Source: Armatimonadota bacterium
GTDB taxonomy: Bacteria > Armatimonadota > UBA5829 > DTJY01
DNA length: 64,000 nucleotides
Reading direction: 5' to 3'
Assembly: GCA_023511795.1 (NCBI GenBank)
Contig: JAIMAU010000010.1
Span: 1 to 64,000 of the forward strand
Part shown: positions 27-18,383 of the stretch, one piece after another
How positions within the stretch are numbered: the stretch's first letter is position 1
Layout: each line of letters starts with the position of its first letter
Translations under genes and position numbers: made by a program
The notes under the pieces: generated by a model
Databases searched by the model: none
Seen by the model: only the letters and a program-made list of their open reading frames with translations
What the model was told of the DNA's origin: nothing

Positions 27-166
27 ACAAAACAAATTATATCATTACTCGCCAAACAATGCAAGTAAATCGAATCGCAGAAATCTGTTCTCAGATGCGT
101 TTGGAGGTTTTATATACGCGAGTGTTTAAAATAAGCTTATCACTTGAAAGCCGGAGATCCCCAAAC

Positions 167-1492
167 TTGAGAAGTCTTTGGAACTTATCATTCATTACAT
201 TTTTCCTTTTTCTACTAGCCAATCTTGCCCAATCGGACCCAACCGATATGTTAGTAGCTAAGCTGCCAAGCGGCTTGACTGTCATCATACGTGAGAAGCA
301 CACAATCAACCTAGCGGCGGTTGATATTTGGATTAAAGCTGGTAGCATTAATGAGACAGAAGAGAATCGTGGTGTTTCTCATTTCGTTGAACATATGATC
401 TTTAAAGGCACGCAAAAGTACGGTCTTGGCGAGATCGACCGCACTGTCGAAGGAATTGGCGCCGAGCTGAATGGCGGTACATCAAAAGATTATGTACATT
501 TCTACACAACGGTTGCTAGTGAGTACCTGCCGGTAGCATTGGACGTTTTAGCAGATGCAATTATTAACGCACGCTTTGCACCAGAAGATTTTGAAAAGGA
601 GCGTGGCGTCATTCTAGATGAGATTGCACGTGCAGAGAGCGACCCTTCCCAAAAAGCAATCAGCTTGTTCATGGAGACAGCCTACTCGGTTCATCCTTAC
701 CGGTTTCCTAGCACCGGAACGCGAGAATCTGTCCAAAAGCTTACTTTAAAGGATTTAGATGAATATTATTTAGCCCACTACACACCGGAAAACACCTGCA
801 TAGTAATAGTAGGGGATGTAAACTCTGAAGTGGCGCTCAATCTTGTAAAGACAAAGTTTGCAGATTTTCGCATGAAATCATCTAGGGCCGTGCAAGTCCC
901 GCAAGAGCCCCTGCAGACAAAGCCAATTGTTCGAAGGGTTCATATGGATATCGACCAGGCTTACATTGTTCTGGGTGTGCGGGCACCCTCGGCATCCGAG
1001 TTCAAGGATATATGCGCACTTGACATACTTCTTGGTGTGCTGGGGGACAGCTACCGTGGACGGTTGTCCTCGATATTTACCGAAAAAGGGATACGGTTCA
1101 CGAAAATTGACCCTGATTTCACGACTCGACGAGATCCAACTGTTTTCTTAGTGCTCGTAGCTGTTGACCCTGAGGATGCAAAAGAGGCAGAGACGGCTCT
1201 TCTGGGCGAATTTGATAGGCTTGCCCAGGAAGGATTGTTGGAATCGGAGATAGGCCAAGGCAAGCGTCTCGCCGTGGGAAGCGACCTTTTCGAGCGGGAA
1301 ACTTTCTCTGGCGAAGCGCGGACGCTTGGTCTTGGCTATGTGCTTGGATTGCCCGAACTGGCATCGCACTATGCAGAGACCGTTCAGAACCTCGCCCGTG
1401 CCGAAGTTAACGCTGCCGTTCGGAAGTACTTTGGCGGGAACAAATATACTCTTGTGATAATAGAACCGCAAGTTTCAATGGAAGGAAGTTAG
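167..1492 (+). CDS. M16 family zinc metalloprotease (catalytic member), exported
   Basis: Predicted exported zinc endopeptidase of the pitrilysin/processing-peptidase family, 441 residues from the start chosen here. The inverted zinc motif HFVEH lies at residues 72-76, and the downstream acidic ligand region (VILDEIARAE, near residue 152) is in place, so the protein should be active. A hydrophobic N-terminal segment ending at LANLAQS looks like a signal peptide. The frame is open back to an ATG at 59, but that start has no clear ribosome site and would put 36 polar residues ahead of the signal; the TTG at 167 has GGAG ten bases upstream. The next gene begins directly after the stop and encodes an M16 homologue without the zinc motif, the usual catalytic/non-catalytic pair arrangement. 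Substrate unknown; small peptides are likely from family knowledge. Confidence 0.88.
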   Translation: MRSLWNLSFITFFLFLLANLAQSDPTDMLVAKLPSGLTVIIREKHTINLAAVDIWIKAGSINETEENRGVSHFVEHMIFKGTQKYGLGEIDRTVEGIGAELNGGTSKDYVHFYTTVASEYLPVALDVLADAIINARFAPEDFEKERGVILDEIARAESDPSQKAISLFMETAYSVHPYRFPSTGTRESVQKLTLKDLDEYYLAHYTPENTCIVIVGDVNSEVALNLVKTKFADFRMKSSRAVQVPQEPLQTKPIVRRVHMDIDQAYIVLGVRAPSASEFKDICALDILLGVLGDSYRGRLSSIFTEKGIRFTKIDPDFTTRRDPTVFLVLVAVDPEDAKEAETALLGEFDRLAQEGLLESEIGQGKRLAVGSDLFERETFSGEARTLGLGYVLGLPELASHYAETVQNLARAEVNAAVRKYFGGNKYTLVIIEPQVSMEGS

Positions 1493-2806
1493 ATGTATAT
1501 TCGCCCTATCATAATCGCAATTATCATAACATTTGTTTTTAATTTTCCAGTAGCGGCTGCCAATCAGCCTGCTGTAAAAACAATTTTCAGCAACGGCTTG
1601 GTGCTAATAGTCAAACCTGAGCCGGAAGCCTCGACCGTGGCGATTGAAATCTTTATAAGAATGAATGTCAACGGTGAAGATAAGGCCACCCAGGGGTTGG
1701 GGCACCTGTTTGCAGGGTCAATCCTGGGCGGCACGAAAAGCCGCTCGCCTGGGAAAGTAGCACGCCTGTTCTCCGAGGTCGGAGGAAGCTTTCATGCAGT
1801 GTGGCAATGGGACTATCTGGAAATCTATGGTGTGACTGTTCCCGGGATGTGCAATGAGGCGCTGGCTCTGCTAGCTGATTCAGTTCGAAAGCCAGCATTT
1901 TATCCGGAAATAGTGGAATACTCTCGCTCGGTCGTACTCAAACAGGCAAAGGCATTCGAGAGCGAACCCTTCAACGCTGCATATGCCGAGCTCAGAAAGT
2001 CTCTTTATCCAGCAGGTCCTTACAGGCACGCATTTATTGGAGACCCTCAAGCCATTGGTAGGGTATCACGAGAACAGCTTGAAGCTTTCCATAGGCTTTG
2101 TGTAGCGCCAAATGATATAGTAATCTCTATTGCCGGAAAGGTCTCTTTTGAGAAAGTTTCTGAACAGGTGCAGAAACTTTTTAGCAATATGCCCTTTATT
2201 CAAAGGAGCGAAGGCACCCAAAAGTGGGACTCACCGGCTGAAGGCAAATTCGTCGTCAAAAATGTTGGGCCTGCAACATACTTAATGCTTGGTTTCCCTG
2301 CAGCAGGCATGGCATCGCCTGATTATCCAGCATTGGCAGTGGCGAACGTTATGCTTGGCGGCAATAAAAGTTCTATGCTATTTCGCAGACTCCGGGAAGA
2401 ACTAGGAATAGGCTACCAAGTGGGAAGCTTCTATCCGAGCCTGCGAGGGCCAAGCCACATAGTAGCTTTTGTGGGGATGGATTCAGGTCGGGCAACTCAG
2501 CAGGTTATAGATACTGCAAAGGATGCCATCCTCCAGCAAGTGGCCAAACTTAAAGAGGGATTATTCACCGATGATGACCTTGAAAGAGCAAAGCGATATT
2601 TGATAGGGACGTACGCCGTTAAGCACGAAAGAGTAAGAGACCGAGCATTCTATCTTGGCTGGTACGAGATAATTGGCCTCGGTTATCAGTATGACACAGA
2701 GTACGCCAGCAAAATTAGAGCCGTTACGAGGGAGGATATTTGTCGAGTATGTGAGCGATATTTAGGCGTTCCGATAGCTTTTTCTAGTAGCAGTGCTAGC
2801 AGTTAA
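1493..2806 (+). CDS. M16 family peptidase homologue lacking the zinc motif
   Basis: A 437-residue exported protein with an N-terminal signal (IIIAIIITFVFNF...AAA) and the M16 two-lobe organisation. Where HxxEH should stand it has HLFAG (residues 71-75), so the catalytic Glu and the second His are lost, and the downstream acidic ligand segment reads SVVLKQAKA. It should be non-catalytic. Its C-terminal half keeps the GYQVGSFY-type region that shapes substrate binding in M16 partner subunits. The ATG follows the upstream stop with no gap, with GGAAGG just before it, so the two products are probably made in step and form a heterodimer; that is inference from known M16 pairs. Confidence 0.85.
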   Translation: MYIRPIIIAIIITFVFNFPVAAANQPAVKTIFSNGLVLIVKPEPEASTVAIEIFIRMNVNGEDKATQGLGHLFAGSILGGTKSRSPGKVARLFSEVGGSFHAVWQWDYLEIYGVTVPGMCNEALALLADSVRKPAFYPEIVEYSRSVVLKQAKAFESEPFNAAYAELRKSLYPAGPYRHAFIGDPQAIGRVSREQLEAFHRLCVAPNDIVISIAGKVSFEKVSEQVQKLFSNMPFIQRSEGTQKWDSPAEGKFVVKNVGPATYLMLGFPAAGMASPDYPALAVANVMLGGNKSSMLFRRLREELGIGYQVGSFYPSLRGPSHIVAFVGMDSGRATQQVIDTAKDAILQQVAKLKEGLFTDDDLERAKRYLIGTYAVKHERVRDRAFYLGWYEIIGLGYQYDTEYASKIRAVTREDICRVCERYLGVPIAFSSSSASS

Positions 2807-2903: not shown

Positions 2904-5900
2904 ATGTCTGTACGAAGGACTGTCTCCTTAGTTTTCCTGTTTTGCTTTCTAATCTTATCCGTATCCTACGCTGCCGAGCAGACCAAAGTAGATCCGGTTC
3001 TAGCTGCAAACTATCAAAAGCTTGCAGGCGAAGTAAGCGCTGCTAATATTGCCCGGACGATCAATACTCTATCGGCACAAGAGTCCCGTGTTGCCGGTTA
3101 TCCAGGCTGTGATGCGGCAACGCAATATGTGTTAAACGAATTCAAGAAATTGGGGCTTGAGGATATCAAGGTTGAACCCTTTAAGGTTGCCGTCCCTGTT
3201 GATAAAGGTGCATCCCTTGAATTCAATGGAAAGTCCTACCGTCTTTATCCAATATGGCCCAATCTTGTACGGACATCACAACTTCCTAAAGAGGGCATAA
3301 CAGGGCAATTAATTTACGCTGGCTCAGGAAAGCTCGCAGAGTTTGATGGATATGATGTTGACGGAAGCATCGTCATGATGGACTTTAACTCTGGTTCTGA
3401 GTGGCTTAATGCTCCGAGGCTAGGTGCCAAGGCGGTCATTTTTATTGAGCCTGACAGCACGATGCGCGGCGAAGCTGAAGCTAAGTTCATCTCCATCCCC
3501 GTTTCCATCCCTAGATTCTGGATATCGAAGGCAGACGCAGCATCACTTCAGGCACTTTGTGCAGTGAATCGGCCTCCTGTTGTGCGTGTCAAGTGTCGTA
3601 TGCCGTGGGAGCGTCGCACGACCTATAATATTTCAGGCGTCATTAAAGGTACCGACCCAAAGCTTAAAAATCAGATTATAATTATTGAATCTTATTACGA
3701 CTCGACCTCGGTAGTTCCTTCTTTATCGCCGGGCGCGGAGAATGCCTGTGGCATTGCCTCGATGCTCGAGCTGGCGCGAATCTTTAAAAAGCATCCGCCT
3801 GGTAGAACTGTTTGGTTCATAGCGACCAGTGCCCACTTCCAAAGTTTGCAGGGCATCCGTGAATATGTTGACCGCCACCTTCATGAGTTCCAGCGGCCGG
3901 GCACACGCGAGAAAATGGCCGCATGGTTCTCTCGAATCATCCCTGGAATGGGCCATCGGACTGTCCGCAAGCCGCCCCAAATTTATCTATTTGTTGGGCT
4001 GGACCTATCAAGCCAGACAAAGGGAGTTGGCGTTTTCTATAAAGGCTATTTCTATGATTGCAGGGAAGATATTCAAAATAAGTTTTCCGACATTGCCAGA
4101 GTCTGCCGCGAGAACACAGAAAAAATAGGAGCTGTACTTGGCTTTGACCCTGCGAAAGCCTTTGCGGACGGCGTGAACCCAATTGCGGGAAAGAACTGGC
4201 GAAACTTCATTCCAGGCAAAATCGCCCTTGATGCGGAAGCAGTCACGCTTGCGGGAGCTAGAGGAATATCGTTTGTAAGCACAGATGATGGCCGCGCACT
4301 TGTAGATACGCCGTTTGATGTAGCCGAGAAGGTAAACGTAGCAAATCTTGTTCAGCAAACTAGGCTACTTGCATGTCTTTTTTATCACATACTGCATGAC
4401 ACTAATAGCCCTGAGGCTGTGGATGTGCCTAAGTTTCCAATCACCGAGCCGTCAAACTTCGCTCGAATGACGCTTCAGGGCGGCTTCGCCAGGCTTCAAG
4501 GTCAGGTGCTAATCTTAAACCTGAAGAAGAGCTTCATCCCAAACACACCCGTGCCAAACACATTGGTAATAGTTAGACACGTTCATTTAAACAAGACCCT
4601 TATGGGCGTTCGCGGGAACATGATCGGAACTGTAGATAAGGAGGCAAGGTTTAGCTTCCCAGGGGTTGCGCCGCTGACCACATATCCTGGCCCACCCAGA
4701 AAGATGTCCGTGGCGGCTTATCGTCTTGATCCCGACAGCGGCGAGATCATATATTCACCTGACCAAGGCATATGGGGCGCGGATTTCTACCCCACGGAAA
4801 TTCCAATAAATACTGGGATTAAGGACATACCTATTGTTGTATTCAAGTGCCGCTCGACTGCAATTTTCGACCTAATAGATCCCCAGTCTCTGCGCACCCT
4901 GCCGCAAATAGACATCTTTGAGGGCGAATCAAATGCAAGGCCTAGAATGTATGGCGTCTCCCTAGCCGTACCGGAGTGGCAGGTCTCGCACGTTGAAGAT
5001 GTTGCCGTCATCTTTACAATGCCGAACACCCTTTTGAAGATAACAATGTCTGCCGGCCCGGCGGCGACTCGCCTAGTATTAATAAATGCCACAAAAGAGA
5101 AGCCTGAGGGCATAGGATATGTTGTTGGCAATGGCGTGCCGATAAAAAATACCTCCCTCAGGGTTGCAAAAGATATGTGGATTCTCGACGATTTCCGCAT
5201 CAATCGCTTGAGAAAATACCGCATCATAAACGAGGGCATAGACAAACTTCATAAGCTAGCGGCAGACGAAATCAAACTTGCAGAAAAAGCATTGGCTGAG
5301 AAAAAATACTCCGTCTTCGATGCACATGCCCGTGCAGCTTGGGGTTATGAGTCTCGGGCCTATCCCGATGTCCAAAAGACGGCTAAGGATGTAGTAAACG
5401 GCGTCATTTTCTATCTAGCCTTGCTTTTACCCTTCGCATACTTTGCAGAGCGGCTACTCTTTGGGTTCTCGGACCTAAAGCGCCAATTGGCAACAGCGTT
5501 TGCCATTTTCTTGGGAATATTCGCGACTTTCCGATACTTCCATCCTGCGTTCGACATTACAATGAATCCGGTGATCGTGTTTATAGCATTCACCATGCTT
5601 GCGTTAAGCTTCCTTGTCACGGTGCTCGTAACAAACAGGTTTGAGGAACAGTTGAAAGCTCTGAATCGAAACATGAGCGGTGTTCACAAAGTTGACATCG
5701 GTCGGATGAGCATAGCGGCAGCGGCATTCTCGCTGGGCATCTCGAACATGAGAAGGCGGCGGGCTAGGACATTCTTAACATGTATAACGCTTATTCTTCT
5801 AACGTTCACAGTGCTTTCGTTTACATCCATTGTCCAGACGATGCGATTCAACAAAGTCCCAGCGCCAGGAAAGCCTAGGTACAACGGCTTGATGCTCAGA

Positions 5901-7451
5901 ACCGCAATGTGGGAGCAGCTGCAAGAGCCGGCTTACCGGCTCCTCAAGGATGAGTTTGGAGCCACTAGAGCTGTCGCCCCACGGGCTTGGTACTACGGCG
6001 CCGCTCCTGGAGAGCAGACGTTCATGACCCTAAAGCGCAACGATAAGACCTTCGACGCCAGGGGGATTGTCGGATTCACTCCTGAAGAGAAGCGAGTAAC
6101 TCATCCTGAAAAGGCATTGATAAAAGGTCGGTGGTTCAGGCCTAGCGATCGTTATGCAATGATTATTCCAGGGGCGATTGCAAAGGCACTCGAAATCACC
6201 GAGGAGGATGTTGGGAAGGCAAAGGTCACATTTAGCGGCGTAGAGTATACAATTATCGGCATAGTAGACAATGATAAATTTAAAAAGATAACCGACCTCG
6301 ACCGCGAGCCTTTGACGCCAGTTGACTTTATCATGATGCAGAAACTTACCCAGCAGGGCAAGACGATGGGTGAAGCCGGATTCCGAGAATACACCCATCT
6401 TGAACCTGATACCGTCTTCTTCGTACCTTATCAGACTTTAATCAATTTAGGCGGAGAAATTCGCTCCATAGCCATCAACTTTGTAACTCCTGAGGAAGTC
6501 AAAGAGGTTTTGGACAAATTAATGCCAAGGCTTGGATTGAACCTCTATGCAGGGCTTGGCAACCGAACTTTCCGATACAGCTCCATTGCAACTAAATCCG
6601 GCAAGGGGTTCAGTGCAGTATTTATTCCTGTGCTTATTGCTGCCTTGATTGTTCTCAATACAATGTTAGGTTCTGTATACGAGCGCGTTCGCGAAATCGG
6701 CATATTTAGCTCACTAGGCCTGGCGCCAAACCATATTGCTATGCTTTTCATCGCCGAGGCGATGGTCTATGCCGTACTTGGCGCAGTTGCTGGCTATCTA
6801 ATTGGGCAAGGCGCCTCGAAGTTGATTTATACATTCCATCTCTTGCCAGGGCTTTATCTGAACTTCAGTTCGCTATCGGCGGTGCTCTCGACGCTTATAG
6901 TAGTAGGCGTTGTCCTGCTCTCAACAATCTACCCCGCGAGAAAGGCATCAGAGGTGGCAACGCCTGCAATCGAGCGAAGTTGGAAGGTTCCAGACCCAGT
7001 AGGCGATGTTTGGAACATTTCACTTCCGTTTGCAGTAACGGGTGCGCAGGCGACAGGCGTCAACAAGTTCATCGCTGAATGGTTCGAGGCTTATGAAGAA
7101 TACTCAGTTGGCGATTTCGTTACACAAAACGTCGAGACATCGGCATATGACTCTGAGTTTGGGAAAGCTTACCGAGTGCAGTGTAGGGCCTGGCTTGCGC
7201 CGTTTGACCTGGGCGTTAGCCAGGAGGTAATTCTCGATACAATTCCAACCTCGATGGAGGATGTATACGAGGTTCGCTTGACAATCAACCGCGAAAGCGG
7301 AGACATATCAAACTGGAAACGCGTTAACCGCAGGTTCCTAAACACACTAAGAAAGCAGTTCTTGATTTGGCGAACGTTGAGGGCAGAGGAGCGGGAGCGC
7401 TACCTTGCGACAAAGCCCCAAGCTGAGTCGGCATCTGCTCCTCAGGCCTAA
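2904..7451 (+). CDS. Fusion of degenerate M28-like peptidase domain and FtsX-type permease
   Basis: Predicted inner-membrane protein of 1515 residues. The start at ATG 2904 has AAAGGAAAG just upstream and opens a classical signal peptide; the frame is open further up but that part overlaps the promoter. Residues about 40-450 resemble a PA-inserted M28 aminopeptidase, but the metal ligands are altered: YYDS (264-267) replaces HxDS, GAENACG replaces GAxDNASG, and the catalytic Glu-Glu pair reads HF (ATSAHFQSLQG). After beta-rich domains come three helices near 832-905, one near 954-975, a large extracytoplasmic loop, and three C-terminal helices near 1236-1343 with the FtsX/MacB hallmark VREIGIFSSLGL. 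A cytosolic tail of about 170 residues ends it. No ATPase is adjacent. Proposed role: peptide binding or sensing coupled to a permease fold; inference only. Confidence 0.82.
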   Translation: MSVRRTVSLVFLFCFLILSVSYAAEQTKVDPVLAANYQKLAGEVSAANIARTINTLSAQESRVAGYPGCDAATQYVLNEFKKLGLEDIKVEPFKVAVPVDKGASLEFNGKSYRLYPIWPNLVRTSQLPKEGITGQLIYAGSGKLAEFDGYDVDGSIVMMDFNSGSEWLNAPRLGAKAVIFIEPDSTMRGEAEAKFISIPVSIPRFWISKADAASLQALCAVNRPPVVRVKCRMPWERRTTYNISGVIKGTDPKLKNQIIIIESYYDSTSVVPSLSPGAENACGIASMLELARIFKKHPPGRTVWFIATSAHFQSLQGIREYVDRHLHEFQRPGTREKMAAWFSRIIPGMGHRTVRKPPQIYLFVGLDLSSQTKGVGVFYKGYFYDCREDIQNKFSDIARVCRENTEKIGAVLGFDPAKAFADGVNPIAGKNWRNFIPGKIALDAEAVTLAGARGISFVSTDDGRALVDTPFDVAEKVNVANLVQQTRLLACLFYHILHDTNSPEAVDVPKFPITEPSNFARMTLQGGFARLQGQVLILNLKKSFIPNTPVPNTLVIVRHVHLNKTLMGVRGNMIGTVDKEARFSFPGVAPLTTYPGPPRKMSVAAYRLDPDSGEIIYSPDQGIWGADFYPTEIPINTGIKDIPIVVFKCRSTAIFDLIDPQSLRTLPQIDIFEGESNARPRMYGVSLAVPEWQVSHVEDVAVIFTMPNTLLKITMSAGPAATRLVLINATKEKPEGIGYVVGNGVPIKNTSLRVAKDMWILDDFRINRLRKYRIINEGIDKLHKLAADEIKLAEKALAEKKYSVFDAHARAAWGYESRAYPDVQKTAKDVVNGVIFYLALLLPFAYFAERLLFGFSDLKRQLATAFAIFLGIFATFRYFHPAFDITMNPVIVFIAFTMLALSFLVTVLVTNRFEEQLKALNRNMSGVHKVDIGRMSIAAAAFSLGISNMRRRRARTFLTCITLILLTFTVLSFTSIVQTMRFNKVPAPGKPRYNGLMLRTAMWEQLQEPAYRLLKDEFGATRAVAPRAWYYGAAPGEQTFMTLKRNDKTFDARGIVGFTPEEKRVTHPEKALIKGRWFRPSDRYAMIIPGAIAKALEITEEDVGKAKVTFSGVEYTIIGIVDNDKFKKITDLDREPLTPVDFIMMQKLTQQGKTMGEAGFREYTHLEPDTVFFVPYQTLINLGGEIRSIAINFVTPEEVKEVLDKLMPRLGLNLYAGLGNRTFRYSSIATKSGKGFSAVFIPVLIAALIVLNTMLGSVYERVREIGIFSSLGLAPNHIAMLFIAEAMVYAVLGAVAGYLIGQGASKLIYTFHLLPGLYLNFSSLSAVLSTLIVVGVVLLSTIYPARKASEVATPAIERSWKVPDPVGDVWNISLPFAVTGAQATGVNKFIAEWFEAYEEYSVGDFVTQNVETSAYDSEFGKAYRVQCRAWLAPFDLGVSQEVILDTIPTSMEDVYEVRLTINRESGDISNWKRVNRRFLNTLRKQFLIWRTLRAEERERYLATKPQAESASAPQA

Positions 7452-7484: not shown

Positions 7485-9485
7485 TTGCCGGTCGAAGAAA
7501 GTTCCATAGAAGCGGCCCGAGAAAGGGCTGAAGAAGCATCGTCTGAGGAAGGGCAGACTGAGAAATTTGAGGAAGGTTTTACTGGGAAGGCAATTGTAGG
7601 GGCGTTATTTATTGCCTTTATAATGCTTCCCGGTGCGTTGTATCTGGGTTTAGTCGCAGGCCAAGGACTTGGCCCAGCTGCACAATGGGTAACTATTGTT
7701 CTTTTCGCAGAAGTAGCCCGCCGCTCATTCATGCCCTTGAAGCGCCAAGAAATTTACATTTTATTCTACATTGCAGGCGGCCTTGCACACATGACAATGG
7801 GCGACCGCGGTATCTCCGGTGGGCCGTTTGGCACGCTGATATGGAACCAATACTTTGTGCAGAGCCCTCAAGCAGCAGCAATAGCCCATGAAATTCCCAG
7901 ATGGGTTGTGCCCCAGCCTGGTTCTAAGGCATTAATCGAGCGGACTTTCTTCCACGCGGACTGGCTTGCCCCCATTCTTCTTTTGATAGTTGGCGAAATC
8001 CTCGGAAGGATGAATTGGATAGGCTTAGGTTACGCGCTTTTTAGGATTACCTCCGATGTTGAAAGGCTCCCCTTCCCGATGGCTCCAGTCGCGGCCTCGG
8101 GAGCAACCGCATTGGCGGAAGCATCTACTAAAGAGGAGTCTTGGCGGTGGCAGGTATTCTCGATTGGAACGATGGTTGGGCTAGTATTTGGCTTCTTCTA
8201 CCTGGCGGTGCCGATTTTTACAGGTGTTGTGTTGAGCAAACCACTCATGTTGATACCAATTCCGTTTATTGATTTTGCGCGTAATACGGAACGCATACTG
8301 CCCGCTGCGTTGACCGGGATATCAGGCGACCTGGGAGGCGTTTTGACTGGCTTCGTGCTTCCATTCCAGATAGTCGTTGGGATGTTTATAAGCTCCATTG
8401 CATGTCAAGTAATCACAAATCCAATATTGCAAAGGCATGGTTTACTTCCAACTTGGCGATATGGAATGGATTCGATCAACACCCACCTATCGGTAAGTAT
8501 TGACTTTTGGATGAGCGTTAGCGTAGGCATTAGTGTTGCGGTGGCTGTAATTGGCATATATGCAGTAATATCCTCGGCGGTTAAAGCCCGCGCCAATGCT
8601 CGCGAAAGCAGATTGGCACCGTACAGAATACCAGCTGGGCGCGGAGATTTTCCAATCGTAGTTGCAATTGCAGCATGGTTCTTTGCCACGCTAGGTTATA
8701 TAATCATCGCACATCGACTTGTGCCGTTGTTTCCACTTTGGATTCTGATTGGCTTTGGTTTCTTCTATTCGCCGATCATGTCGTACGTTTCCGCTCGAAT
8801 GTTCGGCTTGACTGGGCATGGCGTTGGCTTTCCATACGTAAGAGAAGCAACAGTCATCAAGAGTGGTTACCGTAATGCAGACATCTGGTTTGCGCCAATC
8901 CCCATTTATGATATGGGCTGGGCTGCGGCAAGATTTCGCGAAGTTGAACTCACGCGAACAAAATTTACAAGTGTTCTAAAGGCAGAGGCGCTGATGTTGC
9001 CTGTTATGCTAGTGGCGAGCTTCTTGTTCTGGGCTTTCTTTTGGCACACAAATCCAATCCCATCGCCGCAATTTCCCTATGCACAGAAATTCTGGCCGCT
9101 TTCGGCCACATTCCAATCCATATGGCTGACGGCAAACAAAGCTGGGGAAAGCAATTTCTTGCTTCAGGCGTTAAAGCCGAAGCTCATGGTCTATGGCGGC
9201 GTTGGAGCGTTTATGGTATTTACAATTTTGGCAATGGCAAGGGTGCCCCAGCTTTACTTCTATGGACTAGCAGGAGGAGTGGGTGCGTATCCCCACAGCA
9301 CTATACCGCTTTTCATTGGGGCACTGCTAGGGCGGTACTATTTCGGAAGGCGGTTTGGTACGGATAAGTGGAGGATGTACACTCCCGTGTTATTGGCGGG
9401 ATACTCCTGCGGTATGGGACTAATGGGTATGAGTGCTATTGCCCTTGCTTTGATTTCGAAGTCCGTCCAGGCGTTGCCATATTAG
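7485..9485 (+). CDS. OPT/DUF6785-like membrane transporter, probably peptide
   Basis: A polytopic membrane protein of 666 residues with an acidic, charged cytoplasmic N-terminus (about 35 residues) and roughly twelve or more hydrophobic helices. The segments RLPFPMAPVAASGATALAE (about 195-213) and GGVLTGFVLPFQIVVGMF resemble the oligopeptide transporter (OPT) superfamily, where related uncharacterised members are called DUF6784/DUF6785. The TTG start at 7485 has AGGAAGAG eight bases upstream, and the gap to the fusion gene is only 33 bases, so co-transcription is likely. With two M16 proteins and an M28-like domain upstream, uptake of peptides released outside is a reasonable reading; the substrate is not visible in the sequence. 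Confidence 0.75.
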   Translation: MPVEESSIEAARERAEEASSEEGQTEKFEEGFTGKAIVGALFIAFIMLPGALYLGLVAGQGLGPAAQWVTIVLFAEVARRSFMPLKRQEIYILFYIAGGLAHMTMGDRGISGGPFGTLIWNQYFVQSPQAAAIAHEIPRWVVPQPGSKALIERTFFHADWLAPILLLIVGEILGRMNWIGLGYALFRITSDVERLPFPMAPVAASGATALAEASTKEESWRWQVFSIGTMVGLVFGFFYLAVPIFTGVVLSKPLMLIPIPFIDFARNTERILPAALTGISGDLGGVLTGFVLPFQIVVGMFISSIACQVITNPILQRHGLLPTWRYGMDSINTHLSVSIDFWMSVSVGISVAVAVIGIYAVISSAVKARANARESRLAPYRIPAGRGDFPIVVAIAAWFFATLGYIIIAHRLVPLFPLWILIGFGFFYSPIMSYVSARMFGLTGHGVGFPYVREATVIKSGYRNADIWFAPIPIYDMGWAAARFREVELTRTKFTSVLKAEALMLPVMLVASFLFWAFFWHTNPIPSPQFPYAQKFWPLSATFQSIWLTANKAGESNFLLQALKPKLMVYGGVGAFMVFTILAMARVPQLYFYGLAGGVGAYPHSTIPLFIGALLGRYYFGRRFGTDKWRMYTPVLLAGYSCGMGLMGMSAIALALISKSVQALPY

Positions 9486-10469: not shown

Positions 10470-10907
10470 GTGGGTTCGCTTTATACTATCGCGGCTCAAT
10501 ATCTGCCTTTTATTAGAAAGAAGCCAGCGCTGAGCCGCCAACAAGCGCTCAAGACTCGGCCTATCAGGAATCCGCTGGTTGAATGGACGAAGGACGAACT
10601 GGGTGAGGTAAGCTTGTTTATTCCTAGGCGAAAAGACCGCATAGCGCGGATTCTGTGTTGGCTGTTTCGTGCGCCTGAAAAGCGCGAGATTGTGCTTGGT
10701 GAAGTCGGCGGCTTTGTCTGGGAGCTCTGCGATGGTGAACACAGCGTTGATTCGATAGTTTCAGCAATCACCAGTCGGTATAAGATTACACGACGAGAAG
10801 CAGAAGCGTCGGTGGGCGTATACCTGAAGATGCTAGCCGACCGAAAGCTTCTTGGTTTTCGAGTTGGAGGCAGTGGCAAGAAAAATGAACAAACCAGTCG
10901 AAAGTAA
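10470..10907 (+). CDS. PqqD family (RRE-like) protein
   Basis: A 145-residue protein starting at the GTG that follows the previous stop directly. Residues about 60-140 (LFIPRRKDRIARI..., VLGEVGGFVWELCDGEHSVDSIV, then a helical pair ending MLADRKLLGF) match the PqqD pattern: a winged-helix-like fold with the G-x-xWxLCDGxxSv core. PqqD domains bind precursor peptides in PQQ and other RiPP pathways (RiPP recognition element), but many stand-alone members have no known peptide. No short precursor-like gene or radical SAM gene is adjacent. Its 3' end overlaps the FtsX-like gene, so the products are probably made together. Confidence 0.8.
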   Translation: MGSLYTIAAQYLPFIRKKPALSRQQALKTRPIRNPLVEWTKDELGEVSLFIPRRKDRIARILCWLFRAPEKREIVLGEVGGFVWELCDGEHSVDSIVSAITSRYKITRREAEASVGVYLKMLADRKLLGFRVGGSGKKNEQTSRK

Positions 10908-11514
10908 AGAAATTGGTCGGCAAATTCAGCTTCCATTGAGCAAAGCTTTCAGGATTAGCCTGACAAGTATAAGAATCAGATTTTGGCGCTCTATGATTAC
11001 AGCTGGCGGCATATTTTTGGGAATCGCATTTCTTGCGTCAGTGCTTACGACTGCGCTAATCCAACAACATCTGCCAGGGCCTTCTGACCCTGCGGTTGCG
11101 GCGGAAGCAGCAAATCGTCGAACTTGGTTAGTAATCATGTCGCTAGTGGTCTGCACTGTGGGCATCACGAATTCCATGCTTATGTCTGTTACCGAAAGGT
11201 ATAAAGAAATTGGCACAATGAAATGTTTGGGAGCGCTTGATATTTTCGTTGTGGAGCTTTTCTTATTGGAGGCGCTAATTCTTGGAATCATAGCGTCGTT
11301 CCTTGGTTGGATTGTAGGTTTCGGAAGTATCTCTCTTCTTGCACTGGCTACCCATGGCTGGGCGGTGGTTGGCAAGATTCACTCAATCCAAATATTAGAA
11401 CACCTGGGGCTGTCCATGTTGGTTGGCGGATTGCTGACGGTAATTGCGACAATACCACCTGCAATAAGAGCGGCGAAAATGCCACCCGCAATTGCCTTAA
11501 GGGTGGAAATATAG
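10885..11514 (+). CDS. Minimal FtsX-like ABC permease
   Basis: A 209-residue membrane protein with the four helices of an FtsX/MacB-type permease: one near residues 33-52 and three near 80-103, 125-150 and 170-192. The hallmark VTERYKEIGTMKCLGA sits after the second helix. The extracytoplasmic domain that normally separates helix 1 and 2 (200 or more residues in MacB/LolC) is reduced to about 30 residues. Start ATG 10885 has GGAGG 14 bases upstream; an in-frame TTG at 10852 is an alternative. It overlaps the PqqD-like gene and precedes an ABC ATPase, so together they could form a complete two-component transporter or mechanotransmitter. Substrate unknown. Confidence 0.8.
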   Translation: MNKPVESKEIGRQIQLPLSKAFRISLTSIRIRFWRSMITAGGIFLGIAFLASVLTTALIQQHLPGPSDPAVAAEAANRRTWLVIMSLVVCTVGITNSMLMSVTERYKEIGTMKCLGALDIFVVELFLLEALILGIIASFLGWIVGFGSISLLALATHGWAVVGKIHSIQILEHLGLSMLVGGLLTVIATIPPAIRAAKMPPAIALRVEI

Positions 11515-11632: not shown

Positions 11633-12373
11633 ATGGCATCAAACGAGTATGTAGTTAGAACAAAGGACCTCTGCAAAGAGTTTGTTATGGGCGACACAGT
11701 TTTGCGGGCGCTCGATGGTGTGCAGCTCGATGTGCGCAGGGGTGAGTATATCTCAATAATGGGCCCCTCTGGCTCGGGGAAGTCTACGCTGTTTAACATG
11801 ATTGGCGGGTTGGATAAGCCAACATCAGGTTCTGTATTTATTAATGACGTAGACATGGCACAGCTTGATGCACATGAGCTTGCTTATCTGCGGTGCAGAA
11901 CCATCGGCTATATTTTCCAAACTTTCAACTTAATACCAGTGATGACAGCCCTAGAAAACGTCACCTTGCCGACAGTTTTCGCCGGAACCCCCACAGACGA
12001 AGGTATCGAGAAAGGTATAAAACTTCTGACTCTTGTTGGACTTGGTGATAGATTGCATCATAAGCCCTCTGAGCTTTCGGGTGGTCAGCAACAGCGCGTT
12101 GCTATCGCCCGAGCCTTAGCGAATGACCCCGCCATAATTCTTGCCGACGAGCCAACCGGAAACCTTGACCTCAAGACGGGAAAAGAAATAATACTGCTTC
12201 TAAAAAGGCTCAATCAGGAACAAGGGGTAACTATTATCTCCGCGACCCATGACCTTAAGATGATTGACGTCTCCGACCGCGTTGTCTGGATACGAGATGG
12301 CAAGATAGAGCGCATCGAGGAGAGGTCGGAAATTGAGCTAAAGGTAGGCGAACTTGAGGGCGTCGAGCAGTAG
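11633..12373 (+). CDS. ABC transporter ATPase of the LolD/MacB type
   Basis: A 246-residue ATP-binding subunit. Walker [10 protein letters not shown] is at residues 44-52, the signature LSGGQ at 148-152, and Walker B ILADEPT near 169-175, followed by the NLD D-loop and the H-loop SATHD. The IFQTFNLIP stretch is typical of the LolD/MacB/FtsE group that powers FtsX-type permeases, matching the permease gene just upstream. ATG 11633 is preceded by AAAGGGTGA; the frame extends to a TTG at 11528, which would add 35 unmatched residues. The 118-base gap to the permease stop is unusually long for a set that is otherwise overlapping. Confidence 0.9.
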
Positions 12374-12454: not shown

Positions 12455-15127
12455 TTAACCGCGCCGAAGGTCTTGGTCGATTGTACGTGCTGCGCGCATG
12501 CCCTCCGCAACCGCCTGCACGACAGTAGAGCCACCATTAACTACATCTCCGCCGGCATATACTCGGGGCCGTGAAGTTCGGCAATGCTCATCAACCTTAA
12601 TCAGCCGGTCTTTGGTAAGTTCTACACCTGGAATTAGGTCTGCTATATCAGGGGAAAGCTCCTGACCGAGCGCCTCAAGCACCAGGTCGACCTCCAAAAG
12701 GGATTCGCTTCCAGGCAAAACCTTGGGCTTGCGCCTTCCCGATGCATCCGGTTCTTGCAGTACTGTGCGAGCAATCTTAATCCCAATCAGCCGCCCTTCA
12801 GCGTCATACTCATATCCTAGCGGTTGTGTAAGAAGCAGAAAGTGGATGCCAAGAGCCAGAGCCTGAGTCCTTTCCGCTGGCCATGCGGGCATCTCAGCGA
12901 ACGAACGCCTATAGATGAGGTAAACGTCATGCGCACCAAGAAGATTCGCCTGGTTGGCAGCATCCATGGCGGTGTTTCCTCCGCCGATTACAGCAACGCG
13001 AGAAGGCATGCTCACTTTTCCCTTTTTGCATAGATATAAGAATCTGATGGCTTCTTCAACTCCTAATAACCGGCCAGCCGTATTAAATTTGCCCTCAGTT
13101 ATGGGAAGAGACCAACTTTGCGTTTTCCAGTTAGTTAACTTCCCCGTTAGGCCAATGCCAAGGAAAACAGCGTCATATTCCTCAAGGAATTTGTCAAGCT
13201 GCCGTTCTTTGGACAACCCCTGGCCTTTGCGGATTTTTATGCGGTCTTTGGGAATGCCTGCTAAAATTGCTTCGAGCTCAGCTTCGAAGTCGCTTTGTTT
13301 AATGCGGTTGTTAGGAATTGCAGTGGCCGCTATGCCGCCGATTTCATCCTTTTCAAATATATCAACAGAGTGTCCTAAGCGGAGGATTTCGATTGCACAT
13401 GCAAGTCCTGCTGGACCCCCACCGATTACTGCAATGCGCTTTCCGGTCTGCTGGGCACTTAGGTGAAGAGCTGATAACCCTCTTTCCCGTGCGACTTTTG
13501 AGACATAGGATTGAAGCTGGCGAATAGGAACCGGGTTCTGAGAGAATATGTTTTCAATACAGTGGCCCTCGCATTGTATTTCTGACGGACACGTGCGCCC
13601 ACATAATTCGGGAAGGACATTCTGTTCACTAAGGGTCGCATACGAGCGCTCAATATCACCATCCGCGAGAGCGCGAACAAATTTCGGAATATCTACTCCG
13701 GCTGGACATCCATCTCTACAGCGAGGGTCGAAGCAATTCCAGCAACGTGAAGCTTGGGCACGAATATATTCTAGGTCGTTTTGCCTTCCCTCACGATAGA
13801 TTGGAGCATACACCTCGCTGTCGAAAGGCACGCACCCAGTCATACCGCCATCACGCATAATCTGCGTGCATGAGGAGCATGTGATGCAAGTGTGGCGGCG
13901 GTCGAGCCGACCGGTCTCTATAATCTCTTTGGCAAAGCTTGGAAATGCAAATGCTTGTCGTCCTAAGCCAACCATTTGGATACTGCCGCGCTTAATCTCG
14001 GCAGCTGCCACGTGGGGCCAATGGTGGCGCAGCCATGAATATCCGCTACCGACAACTTTGATATCTGGCAGGCCTTCGCGAACTTGGCGTACAAGTTTAA
14101 TTAATCTTTCCTCGCCGACAAGTGGGTGTTCCTGTGGAATGGAGCCGCCTGCAATTGGGCGGTCGAATGGGCGGTTAATATGGGGATTGTAGTAAGGATT
14201 GCCCATAGTCATGTTGATTAGTGTTATGCCCATCTCGCTCAGTTCTTTTACCAAGCGTTTGGGCTCATCTAGATTTGGCTTGGTGGGTTCACTTGAATCC
14301 ATTCCCCAACCGTAGGGATATGGATGTGCATCATGGATGTTCAGGCGACAAGTGATGACCTTATCCTTTCCAAGATTGTTTTGTATCTTGAGAATGATAT
14401 TCTTTAGAAACCGAGTGCGATTCTCGTAGCTTCCGCCATACTTTCCTTCCCGAGTATGCGCCGCGAGGAGCTCATTCACCAAATATCTATGGCAGGCTTT
14501 TACATCTACCGCATCAAATCCTGCTAGAAACGCTAGTCGAGCCGCCTCAACATAAGCATCCTCAAGAGCCTCTAGTTCGTCATCGGAAATGATGGGCTGG
14601 TCGGGGGATATGCCGCGTGTAGGGTCGAGATAGGGATCATGGTAAGCAATAATCGGTGCTGGGTCGCATCCAGGCTTGCTATACCTGCCGGAATGCGTGA
14701 GTTGAAGCACGAAGAAGGGACAATGCTGATTGCCCATTGAGTCGGCTGCAGCCAGGCGAGCCTGCTCAAGCATCATGGCAAATGCGTCGACTGTTCCTTT
14801 GTGTATCCATAGTTGGCGAGCATTAGCCCGGCCTTCTGGGACAACAGCACAAGCCTCAACCCAAAGCAATCCGGCTCCACCTGCTCCAAACCTTCGATAG
14901 CGGCGATTGGTAAGCTCGCCAGGCGCACCCTCAGCGGTTCCGTCGCACCCTTCCATCGGCTGAATTGCCATACGGTTTGGTATGAGTCGCCCGGTAATTT
15001 CAATCGGCTCAGTTAGGCAAGTGATATCTTCCTCGATTGAAATGTCCAAGGCAAGCTTATGGATTGCAGCGCGAAGATCGTCTAGAGTGTTTAGACTAAA
15101 GGTTCCATGGACTGCTCGATCTATCAT
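12455..15127 (-). CDS. Fusion of Old Yellow Enzyme-type flavin oxidoreductase and GltD-like FAD/NAD(P)H reductase
   Basis: A cytoplasmic redox enzyme of 890 residues. Residues about 40-395 form an NADH:flavin oxidoreductase (OYE) TIM barrel (MAIQPMEG, HSGRYSKPG, VKACHRYLVNELLA). A Cys set CxxCxxC-x11-C near 412-430 resembles the 4Fe-4S site of 2,4-dienoyl-CoA reductase. A second region (CWNCFDPRCRDGC near 463 and CGRTCPSEIQCEGHC near 510) matches the N-terminal 4Fe-4S domain of glutamate synthase small subunit, followed by FAD (VIGGGPAGLACA) and NAD(P)H (VIGGGNTAMDAA) sites. The ATG at 15127 has GGGGGA seven bases upstream; a TTG 42 bases earlier is less likely. Substrate unknown; an enoyl or steroid-like acceptor fits the family. 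It runs convergent to the ABC ATPase and divergent from the GH106-like gene. Confidence 0.88.
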   Translation of the reverse strand: MIDRAVHGTFSLNTLDDLRAAIHKLALDISIEEDITCLTEPIEITGRLIPNRMAIQPMEGCDGTAEGAPGELTNRRYRRFGAGGAGLLWVEACAVVPEGRANARQLWIHKGTVDAFAMMLEQARLAAADSMGNQHCPFFVLQLTHSGRYSKPGCDPAPIIAYHDPYLDPTRGISPDQPIISDDELEALEDAYVEAARLAFLAGFDAVDVKACHRYLVNELLAAHTREGKYGGSYENRTRFLKNIILKIQNNLGKDKVITCRLNIHDAHPYPYGWGMDSSEPTKPNLDEPKRLVKELSEMGITLINMTMGNPYYNPHINRPFDRPIAGGSIPQEHPLVGEERLIKLVRQVREGLPDIKVVGSGYSWLRHHWPHVAAAEIKRGSIQMVGLGRQAFAFPSFAKEIIETGRLDRRHTCITCSSCTQIMRDGGMTGCVPFDSEVYAPIYREGRQNDLEYIRAQASRCWNCFDPRCRDGCPAGVDIPKFVRALADGDIERSYATLSEQNVLPELCGRTCPSEIQCEGHCIENIFSQNPVPIRQLQSYVSKVARERGLSALHLSAQQTGKRIAVIGGGPAGLACAIEILRLGHSVDIFEKDEIGGIAATAIPNNRIKQSDFEAELEAILAGIPKDRIKIRKGQGLSKERQLDKFLEEYDAVFLGIGLTGKLTNWKTQSWSLPITEGKFNTAGRLLGVEEAIRFLYLCKKGKVSMPSRVAVIGGGNTAMDAANQANLLGAHDVYLIYRRSFAEMPAWPAERTQALALGIHFLLLTQPLGYEYDAEGRLIGIKIARTVLQEPDASGRRKPKVLPGSESLLEVDLVLEALGQELSPDIADLIPGVELTKDRLIKVDEHCRTSRPRVYAGGDVVNGGSTVVQAVAEGMRAARTIDQDLRRG

Positions 15128-15260
15128 GTAGTTATCCCCCATAGCAAATTTAACATAATCGCCCGACAAATGTCTTGTGCAGGAGGTAGAAAGGGTGAAT
15201 AAGAAGAACGATTAGGTTGCGAGAGACTTTTCTTGGAAATGCGAGAAAGGAAGGTTCCAC

Positions 15261-18200
15261 ATGGAGTTCAGCAAATTTCAGAAACCGGAAAATATACTCC
15301 GTCCCGCGCCTTTTTGGGCTATCAATGATCGGATAACTCCTGAAGAAACTGCCCGGCAGTTGGAAGATATGATAGATGTTGGCCTTTCGGGTGGCTTCTT
15401 TCATTCGCGTGCGGGTCTCATAACCGATTATTTAGGTGAAGACTGGTTCAAGGCAATGAGGGCTGCTCTTGACGTAGCAAAAAAGAGGGATGGATACCTT
15501 TGGCTTTATGACGAAGACCTCTGGCCAAGTGGGAACGCTGGCGGCCAAGTAGCAGGAATGAAGGATGAGTACCGCCAAGCTGGTCTCCAAGCAGAGTTCG
15601 TCCCGGTTGGCAGAGAAGCACTACCAGATGGCAATGATGAGCCCAAGGCGGCGTATGTTCTAGTTGGCCGAAAAGGTGCAAAAATTGAACGAGCTGAGCA
15701 AATTGACTTTGATAAAGCGAGAACTTATACCGATTACGAACGTCTTCTATTTCGCCGCCACTATGCTGATAAGACCCCGTGGTGGGGAGGAGAGTCATAT
15801 GCAAATCTTCTCAATCCGGAAGCAATGCAGCAGTTCATACAGCTGACGCATGAAGTCTATAAGTCCCACCTGAGCTCAGAGTTCGGCAAGCGTATACCTG
15901 GTATATTCACCGATGAGCCACACGTTCGCCAGGGTGGGAACACAATGGCTTGGTGGGAAGGACTGCCAGATGCCTATAAAAAGTGGTATGGACGCGATTT
16001 TTGGGCGGACCTACCCTACCTCTATTTCGATGGGCACGAATGCCGCAAGATTCGGCTTTTCATCCACCGCACCATACACCGGCAGTTCCAGGAAGCTTTC
16101 AGTAAGCCCATTTACGAATGGTGTGAAAAGAACGGCTTGGAACGTACGGGCCATTATCTTATGGAGGACAGTTTTGAGGGCCAAATTTCATGCTGCTATG
16201 GCGGCGTAATGCCGTTCTATCGATGGCACCAAGCTCCAGGGATTGATCACCTTTGCCGACAGGTTGACGGCATACTCCTAACGGCAAAACAAGTTGGCTC
16301 AGCGGCGAGGCAGCTGGGGAGAAAGCGTGTGCTGGATGAAATATTTGGTGTTACACGCCACACAAATACCTTTGAGGACTTCAAGTGGATCGGCGACTAT
16401 GATCTTGCGCTTGGCGTGAACTTTTTCTGCCCTCATTTGACATTGTATTCGATTCGCGGACGGAGAAAACGCGATTACCCTCCAAATTGGAACTACCAGC
16501 AGACTTACTGGAAGGAACTTAAGCCTCTCAATGATTATTTCACCCGACTGGCGCAGGTCCTATCGAGTGGGAAGGCGAAGCCTGATGTGCTTATCCTTCA
16601 CCCAATTGAAAGTGGCACTTCGGGCCACAGGTTTGGTATCAATCCGCCACGGAAATACGGTGTGAAAGATACCAAGGAGCTCCTTATGCCTGTTGATCTC
16701 CCGGGCGAGGAGTGGGGTCCTGCACGACATTTCGATGGCTTGCTTAAACGCACGCTGGATTCGGTGCTGAACGCAGGTTATGATGCTGACCTTGGTGATG
16801 AAAGCTTTCTAGAAGAAATGGGGGCAGTTGAGGGTGATAGATTACGCGTTGGCGAAATGACTTACCCTGTGGTAATACTTCCTCCAGCCCAAACCTGGCG
16901 ACCTAAGACATTTGAGATGCTCAAGCAGTTTGCGGCGAATGGCGGGAAGGTGCTTATCCTAGGCAAACTTCCAACCGAGTTGGACTGCGATGATGCAACA
17001 AACAAATGGAAGGATTTCGCCTCATCCTTGAATGTATATCCTCTTCCATGTGGAGCAAAGCACATCCAAGAGGCACTCGACAGAATCACGCCGAGGTCGT
17101 ATTCTCTGCGGGGTGCAGATGGCCACCCCGTGCCGAAGTTGTACCTCCAGCATAGGGTTGACGGTGAGGATGAAATATTCTTTATCGTGAATTCCGACCG
17201 AGACCGGGCGCATGATTATGTGCTCACCTTCTTAACTAGAGAGGTCGAGGAAAGGGAAATTGCTATTTGGAACCCGCTGGATGGAACGCGCAAGAGAATA
17301 AGGCCAGAGAAAGTAGGCGACAATCTTCGCTATGCTTTCAGCTTGCCGCCAGCCGGTTCGATTCTTATTGTTGCTGGCCCAAACGCAGCTGGTGATGCAC
17401 CCGATGCCGACATACCACCTTGTCTTAGCCTTGGAGAAGTTATGCGGCTGCCGGACAGCTGGCAATTTGCTCGCTCAGAAAAGAATGTACTGGTTATGGA
17501 TCGCTTAGCTGTTTCGGTGGATGGGGGCAAGACCTGGTGGGACGAAGATATGGAGTTTCGTGTGCGCCGCCGACTAGCAGAGCACTTTGGCACGAGTGAC
17601 GCCCTCCATTGGCAACCGTGGGTTGCCATTCGAAAGGGTGCATTTAACGGCAAAGGCGGCCCCGTGATTCTCCGGTACAAATTCAAGAGTGTCATTGCGC
17701 ACCCGAAAAGCGCGTACCTGGTAATGGAGGACATGGATAAAGGCCGGGTAGTTGTTAACGGCGTAGCTATTGACCTATCAAATATGGGGTGGTACTGGGA
17801 CCGGAGCTTTGGAATGGTGGAGATTACTAATCTAGTGCACAAGGGCATTAATTTGGTTGACTTCCACTTTGATTATAATTTCCTAAGCGAAGTGGAGGCG
17901 GCATATATAGTAGGCGACTTCGGCGTTAGGCTTGTTAACCCTTATGAAGGTGAAATTGTCGAAGAGCCAGCTGAAATTTCAAACGGTTCGTGGATAGTTC
18001 AAGGTTATCCATTCTATTCGGGGATTATAACTTATCGAACTCTTGTGCATGTTCCTGCTGATGGCAAGCGCACCTTTCTTCGACTTATTCACCCATCAGG
18101 GATAATGTATAAGGTTCGTGTAAATGGGCGGAAGGCAGGAAAGATTCTCGGGCGGCCTTTCGAACTTGAGTTGACTAATTTGCTAAACGGTGGCATGAAT

Positions 18201-18383
18201 GAACTTGAAATCGAGGTAGTGGGAAGCAGGCAAAATACTTTTGGCCCGCTTCACGAACGCGATGGTGAGGATTTCCCGTACTGTGGTCCGAATGCCTTCG
18301 AGGACGAAAATGCTGTCAAACCAGAGCTGAGTTTATTCGATTATGGTTTGCTTGGTGGAGCAGAGTTGGTCAGGGTTAAATAG
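15261..18383 (+). CDS. GH106-like glycoside hydrolase (alpha-L-rhamnosidase-related)
   Basis: A 1040-residue protein with no signal peptide, so probably cytoplasmic. The N-terminal part (RPAPFWAINDRITPEETARQ, GGFFHSRAGL, WLYDEDLWPSGNAGG) and the middle (FEDFKWIGDYDLALGVN, GRRKRDYPPNWNYQ) have the look of GH106-related hydrolases with a TIM barrel, followed by a Rossmann-like segment (about 430-600) and C-terminal beta-sandwich domains resembling galactose-binding modules (about 790-1010). Exact specificity cannot be read; rhamnose-type linkages are the family precedent. Start ATG has GAAAGGAAGG upstream. A UroD-like gene follows 31 bases later, and the pair faces the six-gene minus-strand glycan operon. 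Confidence 0.75.
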   Translation: MEFSKFQKPENILRPAPFWAINDRITPEETARQLEDMIDVGLSGGFFHSRAGLITDYLGEDWFKAMRAALDVAKKRDGYLWLYDEDLWPSGNAGGQVAGMKDEYRQAGLQAEFVPVGREALPDGNDEPKAAYVLVGRKGAKIERAEQIDFDKARTYTDYERLLFRRHYADKTPWWGGESYANLLNPEAMQQFIQLTHEVYKSHLSSEFGKRIPGIFTDEPHVRQGGNTMAWWEGLPDAYKKWYGRDFWADLPYLYFDGHECRKIRLFIHRTIHRQFQEAFSKPIYEWCEKNGLERTGHYLMEDSFEGQISCCYGGVMPFYRWHQAPGIDHLCRQVDGILLTAKQVGSAARQLGRKRVLDEIFGVTRHTNTFEDFKWIGDYDLALGVNFFCPHLTLYSIRGRRKRDYPPNWNYQQTYWKELKPLNDYFTRLAQVLSSGKAKPDVLILHPIESGTSGHRFGINPPRKYGVKDTKELLMPVDLPGEEWGPARHFDGLLKRTLDSVLNAGYDADLGDESFLEEMGAVEGDRLRVGEMTYPVVILPPAQTWRPKTFEMLKQFAANGGKVLILGKLPTELDCDDATNKWKDFASSLNVYPLPCGAKHIQEALDRITPRSYSLRGADGHPVPKLYLQHRVDGEDEIFFIVNSDRDRAHDYVLTFLTREVEEREIAIWNPLDGTRKRIRPEKVGDNLRYAFSLPPAGSILIVAGPNAAGDAPDADIPPCLSLGEVMRLPDSWQFARSEKNVLVMDRLAVSVDGGKTWWDEDMEFRVRRRLAEHFGTSDALHWQPWVAIRKGAFNGKGGPVILRYKFKSVIAHPKSAYLVMEDMDKGRVVVNGVAIDLSNMGWYWDRSFGMVEITNLVHKGINLVDFHFDYNFLSEVEAAYIVGDFGVRLVNPYEGEIVEEPAEISNGSWIVQGYPFYSGIITYRTLVHVPADGKRTFLRLIHPSGIMYKVRVNGRKAGKILGRPFELELTNLLNGGMNELEIEVVGSRQNTFGPLHERDGEDFPYCGPNAFEDENAVKPELSLFDYGLLGGAELVRVK

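Follow-up and report, generated by a model that had tools for sequence, protein, structure and literature searches.

The window analysed here, that is the whole stretch of 64,000 nucleotides of Armatimonadota DNA, contains on its plus strand one open reading frame of 1515 amino acids (2904..7451, ATG at 2904, stop at 7451), whose product, designated M28X, joins an M28 peptidase-type domain to an FtsX permease. It is followed on the same strand by genes for TM666, a membrane transporter of predicted OPT/YSL fold and the nearest partner of M28X according to fold match and co-occurrence (7485..9485); for U303, a conserved protein with cysteines C113, C116, C273 and C302 (9558..10469); for a PqqD-like small protein (10470..10907; Pfam PqqD 7e-13, order conserved); for a small FtsX protein, sFtsX, with hardly any periplasmic domain and with the coupling element RYKEIGTMKCLG (10885..11514; Pfam FtsX 1.1e-18); and for an ATPase of LolD/MacB type with intact motifs, assigned by Pfam and NCBIfam-type models and considered as the partner of the two FtsX units (11633..12373). 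The four cysteines of U303 are invariant or near-invariant in the family alignment and perhaps form a metal site; Pfam gave no match in 26 members of this family, and PDB gave none either.

The ATPase gene lies 4.2 kb downstream of M28X with four co-directional genes between them, and the intergenic gaps along this path are 33, 72, 0, −23 and 118 bp, given start codons of sFtsX and ATPase chosen by eye. The number of terminator-like sites in the region (19) did not exceed that in shuffled sequences (14.1 ± 4.2). The first-pass annotation described M28X as a permease without an ATPase gene and ascribed the closest one, at 11.6 kb, to another operon. The position was given correctly, but the gaps of at most 118 bp and the lack of terminator excess speak against a separate operon, and it is precisely this ATPase gene that ends the conserved M28X cluster. 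Two promoter-like sites with 10/12 matches were found just 5′ of M28X (2815–2855), the regional total of such sites being near chance. Further upstream are two M16 peptidase genes (59..2806, plus strand), whose best model matches, YfmH/YfmF, stay below the cut-offs (2.2e-28 and 9.7e-28) and which are situated outside the conserved module. On the other side of the cluster, a minus-strand open reading frame of 904 amino acids (12455–15169) looks, by eye, like a flavin oxidoreductase with a glutamate-synthase-type FAD domain.

M28X is built, in this order, of a signal peptide, an M28 domain with a PA insert, a beta-rich region, extra transmembrane helices, an FtsX permease and a cytosolic C-terminal domain. 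The periplasmic ectodomain (residues 28–828, 2985..5387) starts with the M28 and PA fold and continues with a beta-rich/helical part. The PA insert (residues 133–215, 3300..3548) was recognized by Pfam with 1.4e-5 and is present in 16 of 45 family members. The Pfam M28 match (4.1e-9, residues 242–324, 3627..3875) covers only profile positions 1–79 of 193, and the family alignment places in it the replaced residues of the site, namely Y264, D266, E279, H311 and F312. Hydropathy revealed a signal segment (1–27) and hydrophobic stretches at about 827–853, 881–913, 953–980, 1231–1260, 1276–1301 and 1316–1346, with a weaker one, read by eye, near 866–884, which is consistent with the seven or more helices counted earlier. 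The extra helices precede the FtsX unit (5388..5642). The latter is represented by a MacB_PCD match (residues 956–1127, 5769..6284), comprising the first FtsX helix and the first part of its periplasmic domain, and by the C-terminal FtsX match (residues 1238–1349, 2.3e-16; 6615..6950) with the coupling element VREIGIFSSLGLAP, which lies in the best conserved (0.75) of 30 blocks of M28X. The fusion of an M28 domain with an FtsX permease, suggested by the first-pass annotation, is real, all these matches belonging to one reading frame.

The ectodomain (residues 28–858, 45 sequences) was modelled by AlphaFold with pLDDT 91.2 and pTM 0.88, and VIA-align superimposed 270 residues of this model on 1AMP (Z 29.5, 2.6 Å). 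The best Foldseek matches were PA-containing M28 aminopeptidases, transferrin receptor and glutamate carboxypeptidase, 2EK8 giving 4.4e-28, while the profile search returned 2EK8 (6.3e-24), YwaD (3.1e-20), nicalin (2e-10, over only about 80 profile positions) and transferrin receptor (3.4e-9). The predicted M28 fold is, therefore, confident, and the proposal of a pseudo-M28 domain is supported in that the entire domain is an M28 homologue of non-peptidase kind. The fold is shared with 1AMP, 2EK8 and YwaD (6HC6), the last two also having the PA insert.

In the Vibrio M28 enzyme we take H97, D117, E152, D179 and H256 to be the metal ligands and E151 to be the general base. Profile alignment placed Y264, E279, H311 and F312 of M28X against H97, D117, E151 and E152, respectively, and alignment by hand placed D367 and A444 against D179 and H256. 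The altered motifs YYDS, GAENACG and AHF, noticed already at the first pass, are indeed present and turned out to be family traits. Site residues were counted in 63 M28X homologue sequences from two phyla. Position 264 is occupied by Y in 46, F in 12, H in two and S, N or W in one each; position 279 by E in 51, N in six, D in four, S in one and G in one; position 312 by F in 50, C in five, G in four, H in three and S in one, so that the ligand Glu is kept in none. Histidine stands at the general-base position 311 in 63/63 and at position 444 in 9/63. D266, H311, D367, E445, R464 and D472 are invariant in the entire set, and among the five presumed ligand positions only D367 is constant. Unlike M28 aminopeptidases, each examined member has other residues in place of the base and of most metal ligands. 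The idea that only this genome carries a degenerate copy was rejected, as H311, D367 and E445 were common to 47/47 and then to 63/63 sequences.

Since the base is always His, the ligand Glu is never kept and six residues do not vary, one deals with a conserved replacement rather than with decay. Judging by the aligned sequences, the dizinc peptidase site is lost family-wide, a site of the kind found in M28 enzymes should be unable to form, and the pocket appears to be under strong selection. A domain that binds and does not cleave, as proposed initially, remains the best reading of a site replaced in 63/63 homologues. One may suppose instead that D266, H311, D367, E445, R464 and D472 form a site catalysing a different reaction, where His occupies the position of the general base. 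Invariance of these residues in two phyla fits this supposition, as does 2ANP, one of the structures matched, which is titled as a functional Glu151His mutant of the Vibrio enzyme; going by this title, the change is the same as in M28X and is a point against calling the site simply dead. Glutaminyl cyclases also have the same fold as the ectodomain. Nevertheless, at positions presumed to hold ligands in the Vibrio enzyme, E152 is never preserved, H97 is replaced by Tyr or Phe in 58/63, the bridging Asp by Asn, Ser or Gly in 8/63, and H256 is kept only in the nine sequences mentioned, which leaves a re-wired enzyme unlikely.

M28X and sFtsX have one FtsX unit each, with a coupling element of its own that is conserved. 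The window ATPase has its closest models in LolD, MacB, YbbA and darobactin export (LolD 1.8e-69, MacB 7.4e-66, below equivalog cut-offs), and in its family Walker A is preserved in 32/33 sequences, while the signature, Walker B and H-loop are preserved in 33/33. Neither permease approaches the lolCE family cut-off of 362: M28X scored 30 bits (28.7 in the genome search) and sFtsX 31.9 (31.4). A search for LolCDE in this genome gave zero matches over the cut-off, a result of little weight, because this cut-off is passed by only 2 of 14 control genomes.

Conservation of the locus was surveyed in 40 loci from 38 other genomes. The order M28X, TM666, U303, PqqD, sFtsX, ATPase was found in 23 of them (in two with M16 genes upstream), sFtsX, ATPase, M28X, TM666 in two, M28X followed by TM666 only in seven, and M28X devoid of module neighbours in eight, one of which is at a contig end (196 bp downstream). 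Accordingly, sFtsX and ATPase genes are beside M28X in 25/40 loci and TM666 in 32/40, the ATPase being absent from the vicinity in 15/40. No other neighbour family is fixed in these loci: the most frequent one occurs in 9/40, its position and strand differing from locus to locus. A RiPP system, hinted at by PqqD and M16, was considered and found no support: no fixed extra neighbour was seen among open reading frames of at least 120 amino acids, and M16 is upstream in only 2/40 loci.

Co-occurrence was estimated in 151 Armatimonadota genomes searched with M28X, sFtsX, TM666, ATPase and U303. All five proteins were found in 112 genomes, none in 27 and a part of them in 12, several of which are incomplete or fragmented assemblies. 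Numbers of genomes with both proteins, M28X only, the other only and neither were 121/3/0/27 for TM666 (missing in G025, G082, G112), 119/5/0/27 for the ATPase clade (G073, G087, G111, G112, G119), 119/5/0/27 for sFtsX (G087, G111, G112, G119, G123) and 117/7/0/27 for U303 (G024, G050, G073, G087, G089, G112, G114). Fisher values, which ignore kinship, are 1e-23 to 1e-27, and a neighbouring control gene outside the module (15261–18383) gave 99/25/16/11 with p 0.04. Presence was accepted below 1e-20 for M28X (best absent 1.5e-10, weakest present 1.6e-21), 1e-25 for sFtsX (4.3e-18 and 2.9e-28) and 1e-85 for ATPase (3.3e-71 and 1.9e-88), any match to 1e-3 being counted for TM666 and U303; all cut-offs were chosen after viewing the tables, G089 and G114 were scored as M28X-positive despite a weak match, and some unmatched genomes (10 for TM666, 14 for U303, 16 for the control gene) were named by elimination. 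The 27 M28X-negative genomes are spread over eight families, so that several losses are needed. Within one genus (g28) two genomes lack all the proteins (G038, G098) and four have them all (G074, G136, G144, G148). In family f16 M28X, TM666 and a U303-sFtsX-ATPase cassette are located apart and still occur all or none, as in G121 (M28X at C14:299209, TM666 at C14:95464, the cassette at C16:70045-72474). The biological unit is the six-gene module.

The first-pass view, according to which M28X is a receptor fused to a permease and operating with no ATPase, finds some ground in the eight loci without module neighbours. Yet f16 genomes with dispersed genes carry the sFtsX-ATPase cassette elsewhere, and the genome survey contradicted the assumed lack of a partner, as a dedicated ATPase and sFtsX accompany M28X in 119/124 genomes each and are found in 0/27 where it is missing. 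An orphan permease is thereby rejected, and the ATPase-free receptor seems to us extremely improbable. The closest partner, overlooked at the first pass, is the adjoining TM666 with its 121/124 and 0/27.

TM666 was modelled with pLDDT 81.7 and pTM 0.82. Among solved structures Foldseek found only barley YS1 (3.2e-10), and comparison with its structure 7WST gave Z 20.7 for 551/601 residues at 4.2 Å, the next row having Z 4.0, at sequence identity of 11–15 percent. NCBIfam and PDB sequence searches with TM666 gave no match, and Pfam OPT was registered in 2/35 members with E values of at most 0.05, the best being 5e-7, but not in TM666 of the window. Thus the model has the OPT/YSL fold, while OPT membership by sequence is weak. 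To our knowledge, barley YS1 has no ABC partner. It shares the fold of TM666 and, according to PMC9691689, is a plant importer of iron-phytosiderophore.

Constancy of TM666 as a partner allows one to think of a scaffold, in which the dead M28 ectodomain would assemble or check membrane proteins, including the OPT protein, as nicalin or nicastrin do. Dead M28 folds serve as scaffolds in eukaryotes, and nicalin was matched with 2e-10. This match is, however, short, and the scaffold alone leaves the dedicated ATPase unexplained; such a role is very improbable. Transferrin receptor and nicalin, both matched by M28X, are non-catalytic M28 homologues; they are eukaryotic and have M28-type ectodomains without an enzyme site, as M28X has, but are not known to have an ATPase.

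One M28X homologue (locus L048) belongs to a genome of a second phylum (G151). There M28X was found in 16/16 genomes, mostly in three copies, and TM666 also in 16/16, with three matches in 14 and four in two. The ATPase clade is present in 15/16, and PqqD, sFtsX and ATPase follow in the window order at 3/3 ATPase loci read. In L123, L126 and L128 TM666 forms a pair with one M28X copy, but it was not seen in the remaining 13 loci read from this phylum. Because M28X and TM666 are both multiplied beside one such ATPase, these data suggest exchangeable M28X/TM666 front ends on a shared engine. G167, which has M28X and TM666 without the ATPase clade, makes ATPase-free use possible and is the second point in favour of the ATPase-free receptor.

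Two FtsX units with coupling elements and intact ATPase motifs are the features that a type VII complex with unlike permeases requires. We give about an even chance to the interpretation that M28X, sFtsX and the ATPase are parts of one type VII ABC (mechanotransmission) complex, in which the non-catalytic M28 ectodomain captures peptide-like ligands for the OPT partner. The two FtsX halves would be supplied by different proteins, like LolC and LolE, and the LolD-type ATPase would close beneath both coupling helices, so that ATP cycles would shift the periplasmic side bearing the M28/PA ectodomain. A peptide or peptide-like ligand might be bound in the former active-site cleft, freed by the ATPase stroke to TM666 and imported by the latter, while the PqqD-like protein and U303 may work at the cytosolic side. 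The data establish the gene set and its joint inheritance, the folds, the fixed replacement of the M28 site and the intact ATPase and coupling motifs, whereas the physical complex, the ligand, the transport direction and the functions of PqqD and U303 are inferred. Import and a peptide as the ligand are the least certain steps, the direction being taken by analogy with plant relatives of TM666.

LolCDE combines unlike permeases LolC and LolE with the ATPase LolD and in this respect resembles the module, but the lolCE cut-off is not reached and both ectodomain and neighbours differ. In MacB the ATPase and permease make one chain, whereas here they are encoded separately. According to PMC12646458, the type VII ABC complex YbbAP-TesA of E. 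coli can pass material to a periplasmic hydrolase. It is akin to the module in having a type VII ABC ATPase, a permease and a periplasmic partner of hydrolase fold; there the hydrolase is active and separate, and here a dead peptidase is fused to the permease and supplemented with a second FtsX and an OPT transporter. This hand-over, together with the FtsX and ATPase motifs, is the ground on which we suggest that ATP drives movements of the ectodomain of M28X, as outlined above.

Known type VII complexes, YbbAP-TesA among them, work in the outward direction, and the ATPase most resembles the models of LolD, MacB, YbbA and darobactin export. The FtsX-ATPase may then pull a peptide, lipopeptide or lipoprotein out of the inner membrane, as systems of LolCDE, MacB or darobactin type do, M28 guiding it outward and the OPT protein making a separate step. 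Such an exporter is conceivable but doubtful: TM666 is the most constant partner (121/124), it is multiplied together with M28X in the second phylum, neither an adaptor nor an outer-membrane factor is a recurrent neighbour in the 40 loci, and all LolCE matches stay below the family cut-off.

Returning to the capture complex, we put forward tentatively its broader version, where an ABC ATPase, acting via a dead-peptidase FtsX receptor, loads a secondary transporter of OPT type or controls its gating, several M28X and OPT pairs can share one PqqD-FtsX-ATPase engine in an ECF-like manner, and the ligands are peptides or peptide-like metal chelates. In group II ECF transporters one ATPase engine serves several substrate units, and the likeness is limited to this, as the proteins are unrelated. 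We know of few type VII ABC systems with established roles. A dead-peptidase ectodomain and an OPT partner in two phyla would, if the proposal is true, give them a task of a new type and link ATP-driven with OPT transport. In animals the M28 fold is known from transferrin receptor and gamma-secretase, and M28X adds an example from bacteria in which a non-catalytic M28 domain is conserved. No description of the six-gene module was found in the open-licence PMC literature, though one may exist elsewhere; the data suggest a multi-part machine of the envelope that has not been described so far and probably serves the capture and uptake of peptide-like molecules.

Some variation was registered in sFtsX. 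In L083, L086, L099 and L100 it has 431–543 amino acids, and its best alignment to the window protein begins at about residue 67–80, which implies loss or gain of a periplasmic domain. A divergent locus, found in G089:C84, G114:C62 and G097:C103, combines TM666 and sFtsX with two tandem ATPase genes.
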